64,000 nucleotides of DNA, taken from the NCBI RefSeq assembly GCF_021532625.1, contig NZ_JAKGAR010000003.1:62001-126000 (forward strand), given 5' to 3'. A program made the position numbers and the translations under genes. Positions 2,940 through 47,830 of the stretch are shown here, in pieces. Under the pieces are notes generated by a model. That model ran no database searches, was not told where the DNA came from, and saw nothing but the letters and a program-made list of their open reading frames with translations. The DNA is from Octadecabacter algicola (lineage in GTDB: Bacteria > Pseudomonadota > Alphaproteobacteria > Rhodobacterales > Rhodobacteraceae). Numbering within the stretch: the stretch's first letter is position 1; each line of letters opens with the position of its first letter.

Positions 2940-4088
2940 TTACCCTTTCGCTGTACGGATGGATTTATCCTGGTCGTAAAACGGCATATCTTCGGCCGTC
3001 GCAGCAAGTTCGGTTCCGTCCGGCTGAACAACTGTCAGTTTGGTACCTTTTATGGCGACGCTCGGGTCGAGCCGTGCAATCGCAACAGAATAGCCGTTCA
3101 ATTCGGAGGACAAACCATAGGTGATGACGCCGACGTCTTTACCGTCCGCCATCACGCGAGCGAACATCTCCATCTGATCCATGCTGTCAGACAGTTTCAC
3201 GCCGTAAATCTTGAAGCGTTCTTTACCCTTCGCCGCGTAGTGGTTCTCCGCTCCGATAAAGCCCTGCTTGTCAGGCGACACCGTAAAGTCGAGACCAAGC
3301 TCCCACAGCGTGTCGCCGCAGGTTTCGTTTTCGAACGGGAAAGTTTCAGAGTTATCGCCAGGGTAAAACAGCAGGTAGCTTTCGATCCGTAGCATATCCA
3401 GCGTTGAAAATTGCACGGGGCGCACGCCCATGTCTTTGCCCGCTTCCAGAATGCTGTCCCAGAGGTGTGTGGCATCCTTGGCGCGGCAGAAAATCTCGTA
3501 ACCGCGCTCTCCTGTATACCCCGTTCGGGAGATCATAACATCGCGACCATAAAGGCGTGTCTGCATCAGACCGAAATAAGCAAGGTCGCGGATTGCTGGG
3601 ATTTCCTGTGCCAGAAGATCAACCGAGACCGGTCCTTGTAGGGACATATCGTGCAAATCGTCGTCAAACAGGATTTCGCAGTTCTTACCTGCAGCGACAG
3701 AGGCCAACTGTTCCATTCCCGTACCGGTTCCATGCACCACCAGCCATGAATTCACGGCGATATGGTAGATGATACAATCATCGATGAACTTGCCCTCAGC
3801 ATTCAGGATTGAGGCATAGGTCGACCGGCCAGGCGCGATTTTCTCAACGTTGCGGGTTGTGACGCGGTCGATGACATAAGCCGCATCGGCGCCGACCACA
3901 TGGACCTTCTTGAGGCCTGATACATCCATAAGACCCGCTTTTGTGCGGACCGCTTCGTAATCTGCTTTGGCGCGTTCTGGCGTGTCATCATAGAACCAAG
4001 CGGTTCCCATGCCGTTCCAGTCTTCCAACTCACCGCCAATTTCTGCGTGCCGATGTGCAAGCGCTGATGCTCTCCAAAGAATGGCCAT
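2940..4088 (-). CDS. dmmD: GcvT-family tetrahydrofolate-dependent aminomethyltransferase, DmmD
   Basis: This 382-residue GcvT-like protein shows family landmarks: LMDVSGLKKVHVVGADA near the N-terminus, ISRTGYTGERGYEIFC in the middle, and STLDMLRIESYLLFYP. GcvT proteins bind tetrahydrofolate and receive a one-carbon unit. As the first gene of dmmDABC it probably captures the formaldehyde released by dimethylamine oxidation as methylene-tetrahydrofolate. That job is inferred; a canonical glycine-cleavage T protein is less likely because gcvH and gcvP are absent. The start at MAILWRAS is preceded by AGGGGAATCAAA, a good ribosome site; an in-frame ATG 29 codons upstream lacks one. A second GcvT-like domain occurs in tdm (15.5-17.9 kb), so the locus carries two folate-coupled demethylation steps. 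Confidence 0.82.
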   Translation of the reverse strand: MAILWRASALAHRHAEIGGELEDWNGMGTAWFYDDTPERAKADYEAVRTKAGLMDVSGLKKVHVVGADAAYVIDRVTTRNVEKIAPGRSTYASILNAEGKFIDDCIIYHIAVNSWLVVHGTGTGMEQLASVAAGKNCEILFDDDLHDMSLQGPVSVDLLAQEIPAIRDLAYFGLMQTRLYGRDVMISRTGYTGERGYEIFCRAKDATHLWDSILEAGKDMGVRPVQFSTLDMLRIESYLLFYPGDNSETFPFENETCGDTLWELGLDFTVSPDKQGFIGAENHYAAKGKERFKIYGVKLSDSMDQMEMFARVMADGKDVGVITYGLSSELNGYSVAIARLDPSVAIKGTKLTVVQPDGTELAATAEDMPFYDQDKSIRTAKG

Positions 4089-4193
4089 TTTGATTCCCCT
4101 ACCGGTGTTAATCGTATTGTTTTGCTTGCGTAGATTGAGACTCAGGCGGATCGCAAAAGCAAGACTGACATTCAATAAAGTTTCCTAACAGGC

Positions 4194-4219
4194 AAAAGGG
4201 GCCCGCATAACAGGCCCCT
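4194..4219 (-). terminator. Rho-independent terminator-like stem-loop after the amt transcript
   Basis: AGGGGCC and GGCCCCT form a 7-bp GC-rich stem with a nine-base loop. Read on the minus strand it is followed by TTTTGCC. It lies between the small membrane protein gene (stop at 4240) and dmmD, so it would end or attenuate the ammonium-transporter transcript before the dmm operon. A T-rich stretch on the other side makes it possibly bidirectional. Confidence 0.6.
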
Positions 4220-4239
4220 CTGCATCATTTTTCAGCGTC

Positions 4240-4428
4240 TTATTTAGACTTGCCGTATTTTCTGTATTTGCTGTAACTCTTGGCCTCGGCCTTTTGGCCA
4301 ATCACCAATGCGCCAATGCACAGAACAATCGAAATTACGCTGAAGATTCCGGGCAATGCGCTGCCGTATCCCATGAAAATCGGGCCGGACACACCTTCCC
4401 AAGTCGCTGGTTCAAATGGAAATCCCAT
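4240..4428 (-). CDS. Small single-span membrane protein downstream of amtB
   Basis: This 62-residue protein has a short N-terminal segment (MGFPFEPATWEG), one hydrophobic helix of about 22 residues (GIFSVISIVLCIGALVIG) and a very basic tail rich in lysine, serine and tyrosine (KSYSKYRKYGKSK). By the positive-inside rule the tail is cytoplasmic. It starts 18 bases after the amtB stop with a good ribosome site (AAGGAGTAA), so the two are co-transcribed and probably co-translated at similar levels. I do not recognise a characterised family. Coupling to an ammonium channel suggests an accessory or regulatory subunit of the transporter, but that is inference from position. The clean ribosome site and the terminator just behind the stop argue that it is a real gene. 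Confidence 0.7.
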   Translation of the reverse strand: MGFPFEPATWEGVSGPIFMGYGSALPGIFSVISIVLCIGALVIGQKAEAKSYSKYRKYGKSK

Positions 4429-38213: not shown

Positions 38214-39935
38214 ATGTACGCCATTCGCGCCCTTGTTCCCGCCCTTGTTCTGGGCTTGGCTGCTGGGATCTATGGCGCCTCCTTCTCTTACTTTAAAGCG
38301 CAGGAAATTGAGAAAGCCGCAGCACGCCTAACGCTTTATCGCAGTACACTTGAGTCAGAGCTGCGTCACTTCTCGCATCTGCCGTTCTTATTGTCGCTCG
38401 ACCCCTTTGTGATCAGGGGCATATCTGATGCACAGATCGATGGGCTCGATTATAGATTGGCGCGCTACTCGCAGAGTGCCGGGCTTGATGCAGTGTTTCT
38501 AATGGACGCGGAAGGCCTAACCATAGCGGCATCCAACGCCCGATCAGACTCGAGCTTCAAAGGCCAAAACTACGCCTACCGCCCCTATTTTCAGGACGCC
38601 CAACAAGGTCAGTTGGGTGAGTTTTACGGAATTGGCGCCACGACAGGCATTCCCGGTTATTTTTATGCAATGGTTGTTCGATCTGCTGAGGCAGGACAGT
38701 CTGGAGTTATTGCGATCAAGATCGACCTGTCCCGTTTACAGGATGATTGGCTGGCTTCGGGAGAACGCATTATCCTAGCAAATGCTGATGGGGTCGTTCT
38801 TTTGGCGTCAGACCCGGCTTGGCGTTATAAAACGTTGGGGGAACTTTCTGATGACCAACGAGAGAGGATCTTGGCCTCTCGGCAGTTCGGTACTGAGTCC
38901 CTTGAGCCACTAGATTGGTCGCCTGATGAACCGTCTCGGACAGCGACTCTTGGCGGTGAAAACCTGAACTACCTCTCAACGACTGATTTACCAAACTCTT
39001 GGTCACTTCACTTCTTCACCCCCCATGATCAAGCGACCACGCGTGCGTGGCTGGTCACTGGGTTATTTCTTGCCTTTGTTCTGTTCGGCTTCACCGCCTT
39101 ACAGTTCGCTCGTTTTCGCCGTGTTCGCACCGCGCTTGATGTTTCCGAGCAGGAGGAGGCGCAGCTTCGATTGGCAAACGAACGTCTCGCCGTTGAAATC
39201 GATGAACGTCGTGCGGCGCAACGGACTTTGCAAAAGACACAGGCAGAATTGGAACGTGCGGGCCGGCTGGCGGCGCTTGGGCAATTGGCGTCCTCGGTGA
39301 CGCATGAGTTGGGCCAGCCCATTGCCGCCATGCGAAATCAACTCGCCGCTGCCGAAATGACGGAAGGAGCAACATCTTTGAATACAAAGATGCAGGGCCT
39401 CGCTGCGAGGATGGAAAACATCACACGGCAGCTAAAGTTCTTCTCGCGGAAAGGGCGTGATAGCTTCGAAACCTTCGACCTTCGAGATACCGTTCACAAC
39501 GCGTTGACGCTTTTGGAACCAAGCATTTTGGCACGCAAGGCCGAGGTCATTTTCGACGACGTCGCACAGGGCGAAATGACGCTGCACGCAAACAAATTGC
39601 GGATCGAGCAGGTCATCACAAACATTGTGCGAAATGCATTGGATGCGGTTGAAGGGCAGGATGTCCGTCGGGTTCTGATTACTTTGGGCCACACATCAAA
39701 CAGGATTTGGTTTGAAGTCGCTGATACTGGCCACGGCTTACAAGGGCAGACCCTCGAAGATTTGCGTGAACCCTTTGCGACAACACGCGAAAGTGGCGAA
39801 GGGATGGGATTGGGGCTAACGATTTCAGCAGGCATTGTCACTGACCACAACGGGACGATATCAGCCAAGGATGGTCCAGAAGGCGGGACGATCTTCCGAA
39901 TTGAACTGCCCCGTAACCAAGAGGATTCATCATGA
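38214..39935 (+). CDS. DctB-like sensor histidine kinase
   Basis: This 573-residue membrane kinase has a first transmembrane helix at residues 4-24, a periplasmic double-Cache-like sensor at about 30-270 (LDAVFLMDAEGLTIAASNAR; NYAYRPYFQDAQQGQLGEFY), a second helix at about 280-298 and a coiled coil at about 308-350. The H-box is ASSVTHELGQPIAAM with H364, the N-box is around N474 (NIVRNALDAVE), and G-boxes are ADTGHGLQG and GMGLGLTI. This order is that of DctB C4-dicarboxylate sensors. The stop overlaps the response-regulator start by four bases. It probably senses the TRAP substrate and phosphorylates D54 of the next protein. Ligand identity is open. Confidence 0.9.
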   Translation: MYAIRALVPALVLGLAAGIYGASFSYFKAQEIEKAAARLTLYRSTLESELRHFSHLPFLLSLDPFVIRGISDAQIDGLDYRLARYSQSAGLDAVFLMDAEGLTIAASNARSDSSFKGQNYAYRPYFQDAQQGQLGEFYGIGATTGIPGYFYAMVVRSAEAGQSGVIAIKIDLSRLQDDWLASGERIILANADGVVLLASDPAWRYKTLGELSDDQRERILASRQFGTESLEPLDWSPDEPSRTATLGGENLNYLSTTDLPNSWSLHFFTPHDQATTRAWLVTGLFLAFVLFGFTALQFARFRRVRTALDVSEQEEAQLRLANERLAVEIDERRAAQRTLQKTQAELERAGRLAALGQLASSVTHELGQPIAAMRNQLAAAEMTEGATSLNTKMQGLAARMENITRQLKFFSRKGRDSFETFDLRDTVHNALTLLEPSILARKAEVIFDDVAQGEMTLHANKLRIEQVITNIVRNALDAVEGQDVRRVLITLGHTSNRIWFEVADTGHGLQGQTLEDLREPFATTRESGEGMGLGLTISAGIVTDHNGTISAKDGPEGGTIFRIELPRNQEDSS

Positions 39936-41224
39936 CCCAGTATCGCGTCTTGATCATGGATGATGATCGGTTGATGAGAAATTCTCTTGTTGATCTGATC
40001 GAAGCCGCAGGTTGGACGGCCAAGGCCTTGTCGCGGGCGACAGATGCTGCGCGGTGGATCAGTCAGTTTCAACCTGATGTGATCCTATCTGATGTGCGGA
40101 TGCCTGAAATGACAGGACTTGAGATGCTCAAGACCTTGGAAGCCGCGCCGCCGATTGTTCTTATTTCCGCCCATGGTGACATCCCAACTGCCGTAGAGGC
40201 GATGAACCATGGGGCCTACGGTTTTATAGAAAAACCTTATGACCCAAAGCGTTTGTTACTCATCCTGTCTCACGCCGCGGAACAGCATCAAATGCGGAAA
40301 AGCAATTCGAGGCTAAAAGAGCGGCTTCGGCAACTGTCTGGAATTGATCGGGTTCTACTCGGCCAAACACCTGAAATGCACCGTTTGCGCGATACGATTG
40401 CGATGGTCGCAGGTGGGGATGCCTCAATCCTTGTGCAAGGTGAAACAGGCAGTGGGAAAGACCTCGTCGCACGCGCTGTTCATGATCTGTCTGCGCGGTG
40501 TGATGCGCCTTTCATTGCGATCAACGCGGCGCAGATGGATGCCGGTAACCTTCCCCATATTGCCCGTAGCGCGGCTGGTGGCACATTATTCCTTGATGAG
40601 ATTTGCGCTTGCCCGACGGATTTACAATCGGCGTTGCTGCGACTTGTAGAAGAAGGTGACGTTCTTGATCCGGGTGAAGGCACCCCAGAACGGGTTGATC
40701 TGCGGATCATCGCCGCTACGAATGAAGACCCTAACGCGGCGGTCGAACAGGGGCGGTTCCGGCAAGACTTACTATTCCGCTTGCGGGGCTTTTCGGTACT
40801 CCTACCATCCTTGCGCGCTCGGCCCGATGATATTGCATTGATGATGGTTCGGTTCTTGCAGGACTTTTCGGTGCTCTATGAAACGGCCACGCCCGAGCTT
40901 TCAGAAGCAGACATATCCGTGCTGATGTCACATGATTGGCCCGGAAATGTTCGAGAATTGCGCAGCATCGCAGAGCGTGCGGTTATGATGTCAAAGCAGG
41001 GCTTAGGGTCTGTACAAGAGGCGCTGTCGGGTGCCTCGCTGGATCCCGCAAGCCGCCCGGGTCTGCGCGAAGCTGTCGCGGCCTTTGAACGTCAAATGAT
41101 CAGCAAGGCCCTCAAAACCCATGCGGGACGAATGGACGAAACCGCAGACGCCCTTGGCATTGGACGCCGCACATTGAACGAAAAGATCGTGAAGCTTGGC
41201 CTCGATAAGGATGCTTTGCTTTAA
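39932..41224 (+). CDS. DctD-like response regulator lacking the GAFTGA loop
   Basis: This 430-residue protein has a receiver domain at 1-120 (acidic pocket D10-D12, phosphoacceptor D54, K101), an AAA+ domain at about 140-360 and a Fis-type HTH at about 385-425. Walker A is GETGSGKDL (170-178) and Walker B is GGTLFLDEI (216-224). Between PFIAIN (193-198) and Walker B there are only 17 residues, against about 36 in NtrC/DctD proteins. The ESELFGHEKGAFTGA loop that contacts sigma-54 is absent, so it probably does not work through sigma-54. A sigma-70-type activator such as the GAFTGA-less NtrC of Rhodobacter capsulatus is the closest known precedent. It likely controls the TRAP genes that follow. 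Confidence 0.9.
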   Translation: MTQYRVLIMDDDRLMRNSLVDLIEAAGWTAKALSRATDAARWISQFQPDVILSDVRMPEMTGLEMLKTLEAAPPIVLISAHGDIPTAVEAMNHGAYGFIEKPYDPKRLLLILSHAAEQHQMRKSNSRLKERLRQLSGIDRVLLGQTPEMHRLRDTIAMVAGGDASILVQGETGSGKDLVARAVHDLSARCDAPFIAINAAQMDAGNLPHIARSAAGGTLFLDEICACPTDLQSALLRLVEEGDVLDPGEGTPERVDLRIIAATNEDPNAAVEQGRFRQDLLFRLRGFSVLLPSLRARPDDIALMMVRFLQDFSVLYETATPELSEADISVLMSHDWPGNVRELRSIAERAVMMSKQGLGSVQEALSGASLDPASRPGLREAVAAFERQMISKALKTHAGRMDETADALGIGRRTLNEKIVKLGLDKDALL

Positions 41225-41357: not shown

Positions 41358-42368
41358 ATGAAAAATTTCATGAACCGTGCAGCCATTGCTGCACTCGCGA
41401 CCGGTATTGCAACAACGGCAGTTGCCGAAGAATGGAACGTGTCCCTTTGGGGGTCGCCACGCGCTTTCACGGCGCACGTTGAAAAACTGGCTGAATTGGT
41501 CGCTGAAAAAACGGACGGCGAGTTCACGCTGAACATCAGCTATGGTGGTCTGTCCAACAACCGTGAAAACCTTGATGGTATCTCCATTGGGGCATTTGAA
41601 ATGGCACAGTTCTGCGCGGGTTACCACCGCGATAAGAACCCATCTATCACAGTTCTGGAATTGCCCTTCCTCGGCGTCGCTTCGCTTGAGCAAGAAGTCG
41701 AACTGTCCATGGCGGTCTATAGCCACCCTGCGACTGCGGCGGACCTTGGTCGTTGGAATGCGACACTACTGATGCCGTCTCCACTCCCACAGTACAACAT
41801 TGTTGGTGTCGGCGATGCGCCGTCAACATTGGCAGACTTTGAGGGTCTGAGCGTCCGTGCAACAGGCGGTATTGGTGCCGCAATGGAGGCCGTGGGCGCT
41901 GTCCCAACATCCATGTCCGCGACAGAGGTGCGTCAGGCGATGGACTCCGGCGTTGTGAAAGCGGTTAGCTTTGCTCCGCACGCACACATGTCATTCGGCA
42001 CAATCGAAAACGGCACATGGTGGACGACAAACCTGAATCCGGGAACCGTGAACTGCCCTGTTGTGGTGAACTCCGACGCGCTTGATGGTCTTAGCGATGA
42101 GCACCGCGATGCTTTGCTGGGCTCCGTTGACGAGGCATTGGATCACTACATCGCCAACTACAACGGCAACACAATGGAAGCTTGGGCGCCCGCTTTAGAA
42201 GAGCGCGGTATCACCCAAGTCACATTCGCTGGCGAGGAAATCGAAGCGTTCAAAGAAGCAGCGGCCGCACCGGCCGCCGCGGCTTGGATCGAGCAGAACA
42301 CAGCTGCTGGCCTACCTGCGCAAGAACTCTACGACCTTGTCACAGGCTTAATCGCTGACGCGAACTAA
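41358..42368 (+). CDS. dctP: TRAP transporter substrate-binding protein, DctP family
   Basis: This 336-residue periplasmic protein has a signal peptide (MKNFMNRAAIAALATGIATT, cleavage near AVAEE). The mature part follows the DctP pattern: LAELVAEKTDGEFTLNISYG, LELPFLGVASLEQEVELSMA and the arginine-containing FEGLSVRATGGIGAAMEAVG that binds the substrate carboxylate. The start is set by the signal peptide and TGGGAGGAAATC; a longer frame begins inside the regulator gene. It is the first gene of a P-Q-M unit and is followed by a strong hairpin. It should bind an organic acid or amino-acid-like compound; the neighbouring enzymes suggest a nitrogenous substrate. Confidence 0.9.
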   Translation: MKNFMNRAAIAALATGIATTAVAEEWNVSLWGSPRAFTAHVEKLAELVAEKTDGEFTLNISYGGLSNNRENLDGISIGAFEMAQFCAGYHRDKNPSITVLELPFLGVASLEQEVELSMAVYSHPATAADLGRWNATLLMPSPLPQYNIVGVGDAPSTLADFEGLSVRATGGIGAAMEAVGAVPTSMSATEVRQAMDSGVVKAVSFAPHAHMSFGTIENGTWWTTNLNPGTVNCPVVVNSDALDGLSDEHRDALLGSVDEALDHYIANYNGNTMEAWAPALEERGITQVTFAGEEIEAFKEAAAAPAAAAWIEQNTAAGLPAQELYDLVTGLIADAN

Positions 42369-42439: not shown

Positions 42440-43063
42440 ATGGCAACCGCATCCTTGGTGCTAAGCGACGACAGCGCGCTGAGCAAACTCGACCACAAAT
42501 TGCTGCGACTTGAACGTGGGCTGGCACTGGTAAGTGGGCTCGCGGTGTTTTCACTTATGCTGCTGGCAGTGTTTTCGGTTTCAGGCAGAAACGCAATGAA
42601 CGCTCCCTTACCAGGGTACGTTGATTGGATTGAACAAGCGATGCCATTGATTGCCTTTATGGGCATTTCGTTTGTGATGCGCGAAGGCGGACACATCCGC
42701 ATGGACATCGTTGTCGGCAAATTGCGCGGCCGCACTCTATATGTGGTCGAACTGATTACGACCCTAGCAGTGCTCCTTTTGATGGCGCTTCTGGTTTGGG
42801 GCACTTGGGCGCATTTCCAACGCAGTTTTGACTTTGCTGCCCCGATGTGGAGCCGCGACAGTTCAATGGATATCGCATTGCCGCTTTGGCCCGCCAAACT
42901 GTTGGCCCCCGTTGCGTTCAGCGTTTTGTGCCTGCGCCTTTGTTTACAAGTTTGGGCCTATGGGCGGGCGATCAAGACCGGTAAAGCGATTGCCGTCCCC
43001 CTTATTCCCGATGCTGCAACTCAGGCTCGTATGGAAGCCGATCAATTGAGCGAGACTGAATAA
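42440..43063 (+). CDS. dctQ: TRAP transporter small membrane subunit, DctQ family
   Basis: This 207-residue protein has four transmembrane helices, at residues about 28-50, 60-80, 95-117 and 150-172. The loop AMPLIAFMGISFVMREGGHI, including the conserved REGGHIRMD, is the DctQ signature. It helps assemble the TRAP importer with the large subunit. Its N-terminal 25 residues are polar, and its C-terminal tail of about 30 residues is cytoplasmic. The stop overlaps the large-subunit start (TAATGG), so translation is coupled. The protein begins 71 bases after the binding-protein gene, beyond the hairpin. Confidence 0.87.
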   Translation: MATASLVLSDDSALSKLDHKLLRLERGLALVSGLAVFSLMLLAVFSVSGRNAMNAPLPGYVDWIEQAMPLIAFMGISFVMREGGHIRMDIVVGKLRGRTLYVVELITTLAVLLLMALLVWGTWAHFQRSFDFAAPMWSRDSSMDIALPLWPAKLLAPVAFSVLCLRLCLQVWAYGRAIKTGKAIAVPLIPDAATQARMEADQLSETE

Positions 43064-44463
43064 TGGAACCTATCGAAATTGGACTATGGGTTTCCGGCGG
43101 TATGCTGGTGATGATTGTATTGGGCATGCGCGTTGCGTTTGCCGCGGGCCTTGCGGGCATGATTGGTTTGATCTGGATTTTTTGGGCCAAGAAGGACTAC
43201 GGGTTCGATGATTTTGGGTGGGCGTTAGGCGTCGCCGTTAAGACAGCGGGGCAAGTGCCTCATTCCAAAGTGTCAAGCCAAGCATTGTCGTTGATCCCCA
43301 CGTTCATTCTGATTGGTTATCTGGCCTACTACGCCGGTCTTACCAAAGCGCTGTTTGAGGCGGCTAAGCGCTGGATTGCTTGGGTCCCTGGTGGTTTAGC
43401 TGTCGCGACGGTCTTTGCCACAGCTGGCTTTGCAGCCGTATCGGGCGCGTCGGTTGCAACCTCAGCTGTTTTCGCCCGTATTGCGATCCCTGAGATGCTC
43501 AAAATTGGGTATAACAAACAGTTCGCCGCGGGTGTTGTTGCTGCAGCGGGCACACTTGCCTCGCTTATCCCCCCGTCTGCGATCCTCGTTATCTACGCGA
43601 TCATTGTCGAACAGGACGTCGGTAAACTGCTCCTCGCGGGCTTTATCCCCGGTGCGTTTTCGGCGTTGGTCTACGCAAGCCTGATTATCGGGATGGCTCT
43701 GACGATCAAGGATTTCGGCCCCGCGGTTAAAGGATACACTTGGCGCGAACGTTTCGCATCCTTGCCGCCTGCGTTGCCGATCGTATTCGTCGTGCTGATC
43801 ATCATCTTGTTCGTCTACAATCCGTTCGGTGGGGACGCATGGGGCACACCAACTGAGGGCGGTGCGATCGGTGCGTTCGTCGTGTTCTTGATGGCGCTTT
43901 ATCAAGGTATGCGTTGGCCGCAGCTCAGAGACGCATTGCTCGAGACAGCCAAGCTAAGCGTGATGATCTTCACGATCATCTGGGGCGTCCTGATCTACGT
44001 GCGCTTTCTTGGGTTTGCGGATCTTCCCAGCGCGTTCTCCGATTGGATCACCTCCCTGACAATGTCGCCCATGTTGATCTTAGTCTGTATTTTGCTGGCC
44101 TACGCGGTCCTCGGTATGTTTATGGATGCAATTGGTATGCTGCTGTTGACGTTGCCTGTCGTCTATCCCGCCGTCATGGCCTTGAACGGCGGCGATGCCG
44201 TCGCAGCAGCAGACAGCGCCTTTGGTATGTCAGGTCCAATGTGCGCGATTTGGTTCGGTATTTTGGTGGTTAAGATGGCAGAGTTCTGCTTAATTACCCC
44301 GCCCATTGGGCTGAATTGTTTTGTCGTAGCCGGTGTGCGTGATGATCTGTCAGTGCAAGACGTGTTCAAGGGGGTCATGCCGTTCTTCATTGCAGATGCA
44401 ATCACGATCGCGCTTCTTGTTTCATTCCCAATGATTGTTTTGTGGCTCCCGAGCCTCGTGTGA
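43063..44463 (+). CDS. dctM: TRAP transporter large membrane subunit, DctM family
   Basis: This 466-residue integral membrane protein has about twelve to thirteen hydrophobic segments. Motifs seen are LAYYAGLTKALFEAAKRWI, AGFAAVSGASVATSAVFA (family hairpin), AAGTLASLIPPSAILVIYA (a signature segment) and MDAIGMLLLTLPVVYPAV. It forms the sodium-coupled transport pathway of the TRAP system. Size is above the 425-residue average because of loops near residue 200-260. It starts at the last base of dctQ and is followed by a strong terminator, so the P-Q-M set forms one unit and the enzyme genes after it are probably a separate transcript. Confidence 0.9.
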   Translation: MEPIEIGLWVSGGMLVMIVLGMRVAFAAGLAGMIGLIWIFWAKKDYGFDDFGWALGVAVKTAGQVPHSKVSSQALSLIPTFILIGYLAYYAGLTKALFEAAKRWIAWVPGGLAVATVFATAGFAAVSGASVATSAVFARIAIPEMLKIGYNKQFAAGVVAAAGTLASLIPPSAILVIYAIIVEQDVGKLLLAGFIPGAFSALVYASLIIGMALTIKDFGPAVKGYTWRERFASLPPALPIVFVVLIIILFVYNPFGGDAWGTPTEGGAIGAFVVFLMALYQGMRWPQLRDALLETAKLSVMIFTIIWGVLIYVRFLGFADLPSAFSDWITSLTMSPMLILVCILLAYAVLGMFMDAIGMLLLTLPVVYPAVMALNGGDAVAAADSAFGMSGPMCAIWFGILVVKMAEFCLITPPIGLNCFVVAGVRDDLSVQDVFKGVMPFFIADAITIALLVSFPMIVLWLPSLV

Positions 44464-44468
44464 CCCTG

Positions 44469-44500
44469 ATCACGCCGAGTTAAGCACTCGGCGTGATTTT
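44469..44500 (+). terminator. Rho-independent terminator after the TRAP genes
   Basis: ATCACGCCGAG and CTCGGCGTGAT form a perfect 11-base stem with a seven-base loop, followed by TTTG. It lies just past the DctM stop and separates the transporter from the enzyme trio. Confidence 0.78.
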
Positions 44501-44598: not shown

Positions 44599-45648
44599 AT
44601 GCGCGACAACTTAGCCAATCCGCATTTTCAGACCGGACTGCTCGGTCTGAAACACATGCCAAAAGATAACGCATCGAATGTGTCCACGTTGTTGGCAAAA
44701 TGCCCAGCGCACAAAGCCACGCCCTTATTAAATATGCCGGATCTGGCCCGCCATATCGGCGTCGCGCAAGTACATGTAAAAGACGAAAGCGACCGCATGG
44801 GATTGGGAAGTTTCAAAGCTCTCGGTGCGGCCTACGCAATTGCCTGTAAAGCCGCCGAACATGTTGTCGAAGACCAATGGAACGTCGCATTGACAGACGA
44901 GGTTTTCATCACAGCAAGTGCTGGAAATCATGGTTTATCAGTGGCAGCGGGTGCGCGATTATTCGGTGCCACGGCGATAATCTATCTCGCTGAATCCGTG
45001 CCGGAAGCATTTGCAGACAGACTACGCGCGATCGGGGCAGATGTGGTCCGAGCCGGGGCTACCTATGAAGATAGTTTGGACGCCGCCCAAGCAAGCGCCG
45101 ATGCCGGGCAAGGCACGTTGCTATCGGACGGATCGTGGCCTGGATATACGCTCCTCCCGTCGCGGGTGATGGAAGGGTATTTGCAGCTCGCAGTTGAGGT
45201 CGCCGAGCAAATCGACGAGCCACCCTCTCACATCTTTTTGCAGGCGGGGGTTGGCGGCTTGGCCGCGGCGGTGGCGGCCTATGCAAGATGCGTTTGGGGA
45301 AATGGCCCCACAATTATCGTCGTGGAGCCAGACGCGGCACCTGCGCTGATCGAAAGCGTGCGTGCTGGCGCGATTTGCACGACAACGGGTCCTGTGTCCG
45401 ACATGGGCCGACTTGATTGCAAAACCCCTTCCATGATTGCACTGGCTGGTTTGACACGTGATGCGAATACATTTCTGACGATCACCGAGGAAGACGCAGC
45501 CCAAGCGGTGAGCGTTCTGGCGCAACATGGCCTGACGACAACCCCATCGGGCGGAGCAGGATTTGCGGCGGCATTGAATGGGTATGAGGGCATGGGCCCC
45601 GACGCGCGCGTATTAATTATCCTAAGCGAAGGTGCCGAGGATGTCTGA
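44599..45648 (+). CDS. Diaminopropionate ammonia-lyase-like PLP enzyme
   Basis: This 349-residue type-II-fold PLP enzyme has its catalytic lysine in GLGSFKALGAAYAI (K73) and the phosphate-adjacent SAGNHGLSVAAGARLFGA. The segment LSDGSWPGYTLLPSRVMEGY closely follows that of 2,3-diaminopropionate ammonia-lyase (DpaL), as does the final VLIILSEGAEDV. It is about 50 residues shorter than DpaL. This family removes ammonia from beta-substituted or beta-hydroxy alanines and related amino acids. The stop overlaps by eight bases the start of the M24 gene. The trio of genes behind a TRAP importer suggests an amino-acid-like nutrient. Threonine-dehydratase-like EutB proteins of ectoine pathways are an alternative relationship. 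Confidence 0.82.
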   Translation: MRDNLANPHFQTGLLGLKHMPKDNASNVSTLLAKCPAHKATPLLNMPDLARHIGVAQVHVKDESDRMGLGSFKALGAAYAIACKAAEHVVEDQWNVALTDEVFITASAGNHGLSVAAGARLFGATAIIYLAESVPEAFADRLRAIGADVVRAGATYEDSLDAAQASADAGQGTLLSDGSWPGYTLLPSRVMEGYLQLAVEVAEQIDEPPSHIFLQAGVGGLAAAVAAYARCVWGNGPTIIVVEPDAAPALIESVRAGAICTTTGPVSDMGRLDCKTPSMIALAGLTRDANTFLTITEEDAAQAVSVLAQHGLTTTPSGGAGFAAALNGYEGMGPDARVLIILSEGAEDV

Positions 45649-46804
45649 GGCCGCGCCTCTGTTCACTGTAGAGGAATATCGCGGGCGGGTCGCGCTTTTG
45701 CAAAGCGGAATGAAAGCCGCGCAGTTGGGTGGCCTGCTGTTGACCACACCCGCCGACGTTTTCTACGTCACTGGTTTCTTGACGCGGTTTTGGGAAAGCC
45801 CCGCGCGCCCTTGGTTCATTCTGATCCCCGCGAATGGTCGCCCGATCGCCATTATTCCATCTATCGGTGCTGCGTTGATGGGCCAAAGCTGGTTGCATGA
45901 CATTCGCACATGGGATGCGCCTGATCCGACAGATGATGGGGTTTCCTTGCTGGTCGATGCGATTTGCGAAACGATTCCAAACAATGGCGCGCTTGGAATC
46001 CCGATGGGCCTGGAAACAAATCTTCGTATGCCATTGGCGGATTTTGAGCGTGTCAAGCGCCGCATTGAGCCCCGTCGCGTCACGGATGCCACAGCAATCG
46101 TGCAACGCGTCCGCGAGATCAAATCCGAAGCCGAGATCGACAAGATCAAATCGACCTGTGAAATCGCAGATCGCGCGTTTGTCCGAGTGCCAGAATTTGC
46201 CTCGTCTGGCCGACCGCTTGATCAGATTTTTCGCGACTTCCAGATAGCACTGCTGCAAGAAGGCGCCGATTGGGTGAGCTACGTTGCGGGCGGCGCAGGG
46301 CAAGGCGGATATGGCGACGTGATTTCACCCGCCAATGCACAGCCGTTGGTCAAAGGTGATGTTTTGATGTTGGACACCGGGGCCGTGCGCGACGGCTATT
46401 TTTGTGACTTTGATCGTAATTATTCTGTTGGTCCGCCTTCTTCCGCCGTTCAACGTGCGCAGGAGGCATTGTTTGCAGCAACAAATCTGGCGCTTGAAAT
46501 GCTGCGCCCAGGTATGACCGCCGCGGACCTACACGCGCTTATGACAAATCACTTGCGCAACGCAGGTGTCGTGCCCGGCGGTGGTAGATTAGGGCACGGC
46601 CTGGGTATAACACTGACTGAGTGGCCCTCATTCACTGCGAAAGACACCACACCGCTTCGTGAGGGCATGGTGCTAACCTTGGAGCCCGGTGTCGAGGTTT
46701 CCGCCGGAAAGTTTCTTGTCCATGAGGAAAACGTCGTTTTGCGCGCAAGCGGGCCTGAGCTGCTTTCATCTCGGGCGCCACAAGAATTGCCTAGGTTAGA
46801 GTAA
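45641..46804 (+). CDS. M24-family (Xaa-Pro aminopeptidase/creatinase-like) hydrolase
   Basis: This 387-residue pita-bread protein has an N-terminal creatinase-like domain (about 1-150) and a catalytic M24 domain. All five metal-ligand positions are readable: D245 (VLMLDTGAV), D256 or D258 (CDFDRNY), H319 (LGHGLGI), E348 (TLEPGV) and E362 (VHEENV). A metal-dependent hydrolase is therefore expected. The start overlaps the PLP gene end; the next gene begins at its last base. In ectoine degradation the M24 protein opens a cyclic amide, but that enzyme lacks a normal metal site as I recall. The intact ligands here point to a dipeptide-like or creatine-like substrate instead, though neither is proven. 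Confidence 0.83.
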   Translation: MSEAAPLFTVEEYRGRVALLQSGMKAAQLGGLLLTTPADVFYVTGFLTRFWESPARPWFILIPANGRPIAIIPSIGAALMGQSWLHDIRTWDAPDPTDDGVSLLVDAICETIPNNGALGIPMGLETNLRMPLADFERVKRRIEPRRVTDATAIVQRVREIKSEAEIDKIKSTCEIADRAFVRVPEFASSGRPLDQIFRDFQIALLQEGADWVSYVAGGAGQGGYGDVISPANAQPLVKGDVLMLDTGAVRDGYFCDFDRNYSVGPPSSAVQRAQEALFAATNLALEMLRPGMTAADLHALMTNHLRNAGVVPGGGRLGHGLGITLTEWPSFTAKDTTPLREGMVLTLEPGVEVSAGKFLVHEENVVLRASGPELLSSRAPQELPRLE

Positions 46805-47568
46805 TGGACAAATTTCCCTACGACTTATCGGACATCAATGAACGGACCGCGGCACTCGGATTGATAGTTCTACAGGTCGATGAGACGATAGAACAAGACT
46901 TTCGCAGATTGTTGGTGGGATCAGAAATAGCGATTTATGTCAGCCGAATTCCCTCGGGATCTAACTTAACGCCCGAAACGATCGCACAAATGGGTCTCGA
47001 TTTGCCAAGAGCGGCTTCGCTTTTGCCACCCGCCGCGCGGTTCGATGCGATCGGTTACGCCTGCACATCTGGCACAACATTGATCGGAGCGGAGAAGGTC
47101 ACAAAGTTAGTTAAAAAACAGACTAACACGCGAGCCGTGACGAACCCGCTGAGCGCCGCAATCGCTGCGTTCACAGCACTCAATGTAAAGTCCGTTGCAA
47201 TCGTTTCGCCCTACATTGCGTCCGTTGCAACTCCAATTCAGATTGCCTTTGAAGATGCGGGGTTTAATGTTCCTGCAACCCTATCATTTGGCGAAGAAAT
47301 CGAAGCCAATGTTGCGCGAATTGATCCAGCGTCAATCCACGCCGCCGCGATGCAGATCGGCCGATCCCCGGAGGTCGAGGCAGTCTTTTTGTCGTGCACG
47401 AACCTACGCACCTTGGACATTATCGACGATCTGGAACAGAGTCTTGGTCGGCCCGTGGTGAGCAGCAATCAAGCACTGGCTTGGCACATGAGCCAGATTG
47501 GATCCGCGCCACTTTCACCGGATGCGCCGGGAATTCTCTGTCAGGGAAAAATATATAGCACTTACTAA
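46804..47568 (+). CDS. Asp/Glu racemase/maleate-isomerase-superfamily protein (Amdase type)
   Basis: This 254-residue protein belongs to the two-cysteine superfamily that includes Asp/Glu racemase, arylmalonate decarboxylase, maleate isomerase and EutA of ectoine loci. The catalytic cysteines are C87 in YACTSGTTLIG and C198 in SCTNLRTLDIIDDL, and SSNQALAWHM is a closing motif of the maleate-isomerase/EutA side. It could racemise an amino acid or isomerise or decarboxylate a diacid released by the other two enzymes. It starts at the last base of the M24 gene (TAATGG). No terminator is obvious in the 185 bases before the tRNA gene on the other strand. Confidence 0.82.
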   Translation: MDKFPYDLSDINERTAALGLIVLQVDETIEQDFRRLLVGSEIAIYVSRIPSGSNLTPETIAQMGLDLPRAASLLPPAARFDAIGYACTSGTTLIGAEKVTKLVKKQTNTRAVTNPLSAAIAAFTALNVKSVAIVSPYIASVATPIQIAFEDAGFNVPATLSFGEEIEANVARIDPASIHAAAMQIGRSPEVEAVFLSCTNLRTLDIIDDLEQSLGRPVVSSNQALAWHMSQIGSAPLSPDAPGILCQGKIYSTY

Positions 47569-47753: not shown

Positions 47754-47830
47754 TGGCGGACCGAGGAGGATTCGAACCCCCGACCCCCTGATTCGTAGTC
47801 AGGTACTCTATCCAGCTGAGCTATCGGTCC
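47754..47830 (-). tRNA. tRNA-Arg (anticodon ACG)
   Basis: The minus strand folds into a standard cloverleaf of 77 bases. The seven-base acceptor stem is GGACCGA with TCGGTCC, and the D arm is GCTC/GAGT. The anticodon arm is CCTGA-CTACGAA-TCAGG (anticodon ACG) and the T arm is GGGGG-TTCGAAT-CCTCC. A five-base variable loop is present and the terminal CCA is encoded in the DNA. It reads CGN arginine codons after A-to-I editing. It lies between the enzyme trio and the orphan histidine kinase. Confidence 0.96.

Follow-up and report, generated by a model that had tools for sequence, protein, structure and literature searches.

A lyase, hydrolase and EutA-like gene trio of Octadecabacter algicola with a possible role in the catabolism of 2,3-diamino acid derivatives

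The 64,000-nucleotide stretch of contig NZ_JAKGAR010000003.1 from Octadecabacter algicola that we analyzed, referred to here as the window, contains three overlapping genes for a fold-II lyase dependent on pyridoxal phosphate (PLP) (B), an M24 hydrolase (D) and an EutA-like protein (A). The ATG of D at 45641 lies inside the end of the B gene, giving an overlap of 8 bp, and D and A overlap by 1 bp (TAATG at 46802-46806). An initial annotation had described these genes as a catabolic trio behind a tripartite ATP-independent periplasmic (TRAP) transporter and a two-component pair; gene coordinates and Pfam matches agree with it on the position, order and overlaps of the trio and on both upstream systems (Table 1). 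We interpret the trio, with a probability of roughly 0.55, as one form ('type I') of a widespread catabolic module whose substrate would be a small derivative, acylated or cyclic, of a 2,3-diamino acid; the most likely such acid is 2,3-diaminopropionate (DAP). The curated models used here assign this module no substrate.

Conservation and composition of the trio

To describe the conservation of the trio we used three samples. The family sample comprises 60 loci, namely 40 of the 42 best matches to A (own genome and G133 excluded) and 20 hand-picked ones; the 80 named loci are those with the best matches out of at least 551 and hence close relatives; and the class sample, fetched by D, covers 40 of 54 genomes with a match (40 loci, 41 D genes). 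Some genomes occur in both of two samples, such as Cribrihabitans (L041 = L281). Order counts rest on tblastn, and the script-made gene calls in fetched loci miss some genes. Around the A matches of the family sample, the order B-D-A on one strand was found at 46 of 60 loci; five lacked D, eight had D-A without B and one had a diaminopropionate ammonia-lyase (DAPAL) in the order DAPAL-D-A. Among the named loci, 70 of 80 had B-D-A, nine D-A only and one B-D only. The three genes are thus usual neighbors in the family samples, and this conserved order supports the earlier proposal of a joint catabolic unit. In the class sample we found B-D-A five times, DAPAL-D-A six times, DAPAL-D three times and type I B-D once, with a lyase on the opposite strand for 3 of the 41 D genes.

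The nearest four named loci, three from Octadecabacter and one from Litoreibacter, have D proteins 81-86% identical to that of the window, and D is found at E ≤ 1e-80 in 11 of 19 genomes of the genus. A has a match in 245 of 394 genomes of the same family. At E ≤ 1e-40, which we used as a proxy for the trio (the bins being our choice and D not being confirmed per genome), it marks the module in about half of them (192/394), and relatives occur in rhizobia and Vibrionaceae.

The curated model that fits B best is a DAPAL model (NF006058, 269.8 bits, cut-off 276); a second one, TIGR03528, gave 174.4 bits (cut-off 532.25) and the EutB model TIGR02991 51.2 bits (cut-off 413.35). A type I relative in another genome (G268) reaches 284.4 bits for DAPAL, above the cut-off of 276. 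In the phylogenetic tree, the type I B rows group together (100/99) as neighbors of the DAPALs and apart from EutB, with long-branch warnings for YgeX and for EutB versus type I; the D and A trees carry such warnings too. The PLP lysine K73 and D177, the equivalent of what we take to be Asp189 in DAPAL numbering, are invariant in the aligned type I rows. The best-scoring model, the position in the tree and the presence of DAPALs in the same slot elsewhere support the earlier description of B as a DAPAL-like enzyme.

The five metal ligands of D (D245, D256, H319, E348, E362) are invariant in 24 alignment rows. The resulting D-D-H-E-E set is found in 27/27 trio D rows of the tree alignment, compared to 0/11 EutD rows, and is kept in 14/14 rows from plasmids, so that the earlier statement of a complete ligand set holds across these relatives. 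The N-terminal domain carries the signature GFLTRFWESPARPWF. The trio D rows form a clade (99/97) that contains neither EutD nor creatinase, and D scores 62.1 bits with the EutD/DoeA model TIGR02993 (cut-off 613). Creatinase (creatine amidinohydrolase) shares with D the M24 fold and the Creatinase_N domain, but falls into a separate clade and has N-A-H-E-H at the ligand columns (N-A-H-E-E in one row of the plasmid alignment) where the trio has D-D-H-E-E.

The third protein, A, belongs to the superfamily of Asp/Glu racemases, arylmalonate decarboxylases and maleate isomerases, and its cysteines C87 and C198 are invariant in 25 rows. It scores 165.6 bits with the EutA model TIGR02990 (cut-off 318), a cut-off that we consider strict because 2 of 44 searched genomes pass it. 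In the tree, 25 rows with the A of the trio make up a clade (99/100) that excludes the five EutA rows from eut clusters; this clade includes one A-like row from G187 (L205), and the A genes of L180 and L181 fall outside it.

Lyases, deacylases and importers at related loci

In other lineages, the place of B next to the same D family is taken by DAPALs. In five genomes of the class a DAPAL scoring above the cut-off lies directly before D (G036, 477.6 bits; G768, 482.7; G499, 446.7; G770, 383.5; G693, 306.9), as in Sinorhizobium (459.1 bits), and in Photobacterium a DAPAL of 510.5 bits is part of the same cluster as D. Across the D tree, type I lyase and DAPAL replace each other as partner at least twice (44 type I and 11 DAPAL rows, with 31 rows having neither left uncounted), as expected of interchangeable lyases. 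From 29 plasmid records with D we opened 16 loci, of which 14 were annotated; 9 of these 14 have a gene annotated as DAPAL near D and one a type I lyase. The diamino-acid substrate class proposed in the initial annotation gains support from these curated DAPALs accompanying the same M24 family.

Several of these loci contain further enzymes and importers. In Photobacterium TY1-4, we found a DAPAL, an Lrp regulator, an EutA-like protein (243.9 bits for EutA), an M20 enzyme, TRAP P-Q-M genes and D; in Aliiroseovarius Lrp, M20, DAPAL, D and A; and in Vibrio cortegadensis DAPAL, RidA, D, a BCCT transporter and M20. Lrp, DAPAL and D occur in three rhizobial records together with an amino-acid importer of the ATP-binding cassette (ABC) type and an annotated Zn-dependent hydrolase, and Ensifer has a gene set like the rhizobial one. 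Genes annotated as ehuBCDA precede D in Bosea and Pseudorhizobium. In Bosea, where ehuA overlaps the D gene, the importer exceeds the respective cut-offs for EhuB (309.6 bits, 190.9), EhuC (256.1, 196.95) and EhuA (406.5, 345.4). Seven M20-type proteins were compared to curated models, and five of these (L098, L180, L343, L342, L347) scored 312-332 bits with the model of the N-acetyl-diaminobutyrate deacetylase DoeB2 (cut-off 550). For those of L098 and L347 no model scores better than DoeB2, and a general amidohydrolase model leads in the other three, with a carboxypeptidase model close behind.

A precedent for a DAPAL fed by hydrolases is known from Escherichia coli, where, according to the accessible part of PMC12507026, uric acid is converted via albizziin to DAP by an M20 enzyme and DAP is then handled by DAPAL. 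As far as that part describes it, the ygeWXY-hyuA cluster resembles the module in having a hydrolase-fed lyase of the DAPAL type as the probable last step, yielding a 2-oxo acid and ammonia, and differs in that it has YgeW, YgeY and HyuA in place of the M24 and EutA-like partners of the trio (PMC12507026).

The proposed pathway would begin with hydrolysis of an amide or amidine of the imported compound by the metal-dependent M24 enzyme. The M20 deacylase, where present, would then free the amino acid, the two-cysteine EutA-like enzyme would invert its alpha carbon to give the enantiomer that the lyase accepts, and the PLP lyase would produce a 2-oxo acid (pyruvate in the case of DAP) and ammonia by beta-elimination.

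A number of observations weigh against this proposal. B lies slightly below the DAPAL family cut-off, and at the position of DAPAL Asp120 it has an alanine, Ala108, as do all aligned type I rows (20/20 in the tree alignment, 23/23 in a second alignment). Asp120 is presumably catalytic; if so, one of the two bases would be missing from type I B, which might then accept a single enantiomer, and this would provide a purpose for the racemase-like A. A Vibrio DAPAL above the TIGR03528 cut-off (565.3 bits) reads TAGNHG and likewise has no aspartate, so that DAP may still be the type I substrate without it. Further, D also occurs without any such lyase: neither kind is found near D at 4 of the 14 annotated plasmid loci, nor within 4 kb of 23 of the 41 class-sample D genes. 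D is thus more widely distributed than the trio and may have a wider job. D-A without B is seen at 8/60 and 9/80 loci. Two of the seven M20-type proteins resemble a carbamoylase-family amidase and a DapE/ArgE-type deacylase, and in the window tblastn with two kinds of M20 deacylase found nothing at E ≤ 1e-5. Finally, the role of EutA is itself a proposal in the ectoine papers, in the parts of PMC13188858 and PMC5924519 that were accessible. As a separate matter, we tried to read a function from the gene that precedes D where no lyase is present, and dismissed this approach, there being no common partner among 25 loci.

A different cargo would be a carbamoylated or ureido form of DAP, albizziin for example, or else a cyclic ureide that originates from purine breakdown or from plants; the M24 or the M20 enzyme would then remove the carbamoyl group. 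The uric acid to albizziin to DAP precedent, in the accessible part of PMC12507026, is in its favor, as is Sinorhizobium, where the Zn-dependent hydrolase beside DAPAL and the M24 enzyme fits the hydantoinase/carbamoylase family (TIGR01879, 401.8 bits, cut-off 204); two further rhizobial loci have a Zn-dependent hydrolase annotated at the same place, and a hydroxyisourate hydrolase lies near the Aliiroseovarius locus. However, five of the seven M20-type partners fit DoeB2 or a general amidohydrolase rather than a carbamoylase, and we recognized no purine-breakdown gene beside the window trio, with no model search aimed at such genes. We consider a ureido substrate quite unlikely.

Compared with proteins of known structure, D is closest in sequence to dipeptidases and aminopeptidases (PepE, Xaa-Pro dipeptidase), and this would agree with salvage of dipeptides or D-amino acids, with D as a prolidase-like dipeptidase, A as a racemase and B as an L-serine/threonine-type dehydratase. 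Type I B rows read SAGNHG (20/20), which we take to be a motif of serine/threonine dehydratases, where E. coli YgeX has TDGNHG. At one plasmid locus, D adjoins the gene for a D-amino acid dehydrogenase, and large ABC binding proteins, their cargo unstated, lie near three plasmid loci, the same or others. Yet B reaches at most 88 bits with serine/threonine dehydratase models, compared to 269.8 bits for DAPAL; it is DAPAL that accompanies D elsewhere; and the importers adjoining D in the loci read are of the EhuBCDA, BCCT, TRAP or amino-acid ABC types. Salvage of this kind appears very unlikely to us.

Relation to ectoine utilization

According to the accessible parts of PMC5924519, PMC3187862 and PMC13188858, the genes for ectoine and hydroxyectoine utilization comprise ehuABCD or uehABC, eutABCDE, ssd and doeD/atf. 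The trio resembles this system in having an EutA-like protein, a PLP lyase and an M24 hydrolase, in the kinds of TRAP and ABC importers and in the Lrp/AsnC regulators beside many of its relatives. It differs in that its M24 enzyme forms a clade of its own with all ligands, its lyase is DAPAL-like rather than EutB-like, and the window has no match to eutC, eutE or doeD; moreover, some genomes hold both systems. In the open-access literature we found no paper joining diaminopropionate ammonia-lyase with ectoine hydrolase.

A plain ectoine operon is ruled out by the scores of the trio proteins below the EutA, EutB and EutD cut-offs, by the separate clades and by the window content, where tblastn queries with EutC, the two EutE types, DoeD and Ssd matched nothing at E ≤ 1e-5. 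A query that may be EnuR, named solely from its position in L201, had no match in the window either. The initial annotation had noted that eutC, the deacetylase and the aminotransferase were missing, which is the case in the window. It had also named two outcomes that would refute its reading, namely homologues inside the characterized ectoine clades, with the missing genes elsewhere in the genome, and three genes that are rarely neighbors in other species. The homologues fall outside those clades, and the genes usually adjoin each other in the family samples. The reading is qualified, however, by a hydrolase of the ectoine type and an M20 deacylase together with an ABC importer at another place in the own genome, and by some relatives of the trio that lie beside such genes. 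Our genome-wide searches, which covered EutA-like, M24, EutD, PotD and DAPAL proteins, found in the own genome an EutD of 591.8 bits (cut-off 613) and, as the sole EutA-like protein, trio A.

This last result, among others, would suit an alternative branch of (hydroxy)ectoine breakdown, in which the trio replaces EutABC and converts hydroxylated or wrong-handed intermediates of 5-hydroxyectoine, the lyase acting on 3-hydroxy-2,4-diaminobutyrate. EutABC has been proposed to act on hydroxylated intermediates, in the parts of PMC13188858 and PMC5924519 that are accessible. We regard this branch as the main rival, though an unlikely one, because the trios of four loci adjoin ectoine genes and because the role of EutABC is a proposal: L166 and L169 have the order B-D-A-EutD-EutE, whereas the trios of L087 and L097 are flanked by DoeD (plus a DUF1989 gene in L097) on one side and a PotABCD importer on the other, with EutB, EutC, EutD and an M20 EutE-like gene nearby and no separate EutA in the locus. 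A second type of EutD occurs in 139 of 192 genomes with trio-type A and in 68 of 202 without, counts not corrected for kinship. Canonical EutD, in contrast, shows no enrichment (18/192 with and 19/202 without, likewise uncorrected). Three genomes (G340, G341, G244) have eutABCD and a ueh-type importer with trio-type A in a separate place, and other lineages have DAPAL rather than EutB in the lyase slot. Among the 80 named loci, the gene maps show EutB-, EutD- or DoeD-type genes at ≥ 54% identity in L214, L246 and L263 only, the gene calls being incomplete.

Returning to a 2,3-diamino acid derivative as the substrate, the combination of M24 hydrolase, EutA-like protein, DAPAL-type lyase, DoeB2-like deacylase and ectoine-type importers would fit an ectoine-like pathway in which a 2,3-diamino acid replaces 2,4-diaminobutyrate. 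With considerable doubt, we suggest that this could be a pathway dedicated to a compatible solute that resembles ectoine and has DAP as its base, which would be a natural counterpart of the five-ring compound 4,5-dihydro-2-methylimidazole-4-carboxylate (DHMICA). Uptake would proceed through EhuABCD-, BCCT-, TRAP- or PotABCD-type importers, the trio-type M24 enzyme would open the ring, the DoeB2-like M20 enzyme would remove the acyl group and DAPAL or the type I lyase would perform the last step. DHMICA is an ectoine analogue described as synthetic in the accessible parts of PMC5924519 and PMC6890836, and we found no natural DAP-based ectoine-like solute in the open-access literature. Such a solute, if real, would point to an unrecognized nitrogen-rich compound of marine and plant-associated habitats, and the module would offer a direct route to finding it. 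It would also help to settle the function of EutA, as the same kind of protein would serve two pathways.

Neighboring genes and further clusters

Table 1. Genes and other features of the trio locus in the window.
Feature	Position	Strand	Remark
B, PLP-dependent fold-II lyase (P0001; PF00291)	44599-45648	+	DAPAL sister clade
D, M24 hydrolase (P0002; PF00557+PF01321)	45641-46804	+	all five metal ligands
A, EutA-like protein (P0003; PF17645/PF01177)	46804-47568	+	two invariant cysteines
TRAP P	41358-42368	+	neighbor of trio, partner status uncertain
TRAP Q	42440-43063	+	neighbor of trio, partner status uncertain
TRAP M	43063-44463	+	neighbor of trio, partner status uncertain
Histidine kinase	38214-39935	+	adjoins TRAP genes
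Sigma54-type response regulator	39932-41224	+	adjoins TRAP genes
Strong hairpin	44468-44498	+	just 3' of TRAP large-subunit stop; possible terminator or attenuator before trio

The TRAP transporter and the two-component pair, which the initial annotation had placed with the trio, find no support as constant parts of the system. Among the loci read, the same TRAP system occurs in one other genus, Cribrihabitans, where the counterparts next to the L041 trio share 62, 72 and 85% identity with the P, Q and M proteins of the window, and where a gap of 54 bp lies between M and B; the histidine kinase and response regulator of the window are not among the genes called in L041. In 11 of 11 close loci, three of them congeneric, the window TRAP is absent (L213 has 0.8 kb upstream of B and L358-L360 about 2.3 kb). 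In the window, the M stop codon and B are separated by a hairpin of 13 pairs (-24.5 kcal/mol, z -5.3), which has a short T run only and is not listed by a terminator scan. Given this absence and the hairpin, we rejected the idea that TRAP and the two-component pair are invariable components of the system; judged from sequence, TRAP is a plausible but replaceable importer. The transporter of Photobacterium is not close to it (small subunit 23%, large subunit 27%, and for P no match at E ≤ 1e-3), and neither is UehABC (P 21%, M 25%). A sigma54 promoter before TRAP or the trio was likewise rejected, as none with ≤ 3 mismatches was found in four intervals; a sigma70 scan was uninformative, with 1 site compared to 6.6 expected. 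Directly downstream of the trio, a tRNA-Arg (acg) lies on the minus strand at 47754-47830.

At four loci (L046, L063, L080, L091), the trio or A is accompanied, in differing orientations, by a set of genes for an M19 dipeptidase, DUF3726, an Ldh_2 dehydrogenase and a protein that matches no Pfam family, the Pfam scan having been made for L046 only. The own genome has a second catabolic cluster (G000:C7:53500-73400, L290) with DUF1989, an M20 enzyme resembling acetylornithine deacetylase, EutD, a PotABCD-type importer and hydantoinase A and B. At E ≤ 1e-60, 331 of 394 genomes of the same family have a match to the binding protein of this importer, and a PotD-like protein lies within 10 kb of trio-type A in at least 14 of these genomes, in several orientations.

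Creatinase-like genes adjoin the PotABCD importer next to some trios. In L095, a creatinase (3110-4327; best PDB match 1chm, 8.6e-162) adjoins the same PotABCD-type importer, and similar genes are present in L304, L305 and L308, with L095 alone having been scanned. The position of the creatinase beside PotABCD suggests uptake of creatine by a polyamine-like ABC system. An arginase-family ureohydrolase (c15) is found near PotABCD or the trio in L182, L183, L185, L292, L304, L305, L307 and L095; the one scanned, from L185, is closest to agmatinase and guanidino-acid hydrolases. The cargo of the PotABCD-type importer may be amidine- or guanidine-type acids. Elsewhere in the own genome (L007, G000:C7:178523-179155), we found the dimethylsulfoniopropionate (DMSP) lyase DddP with 881.7 bits (cut-off 600).

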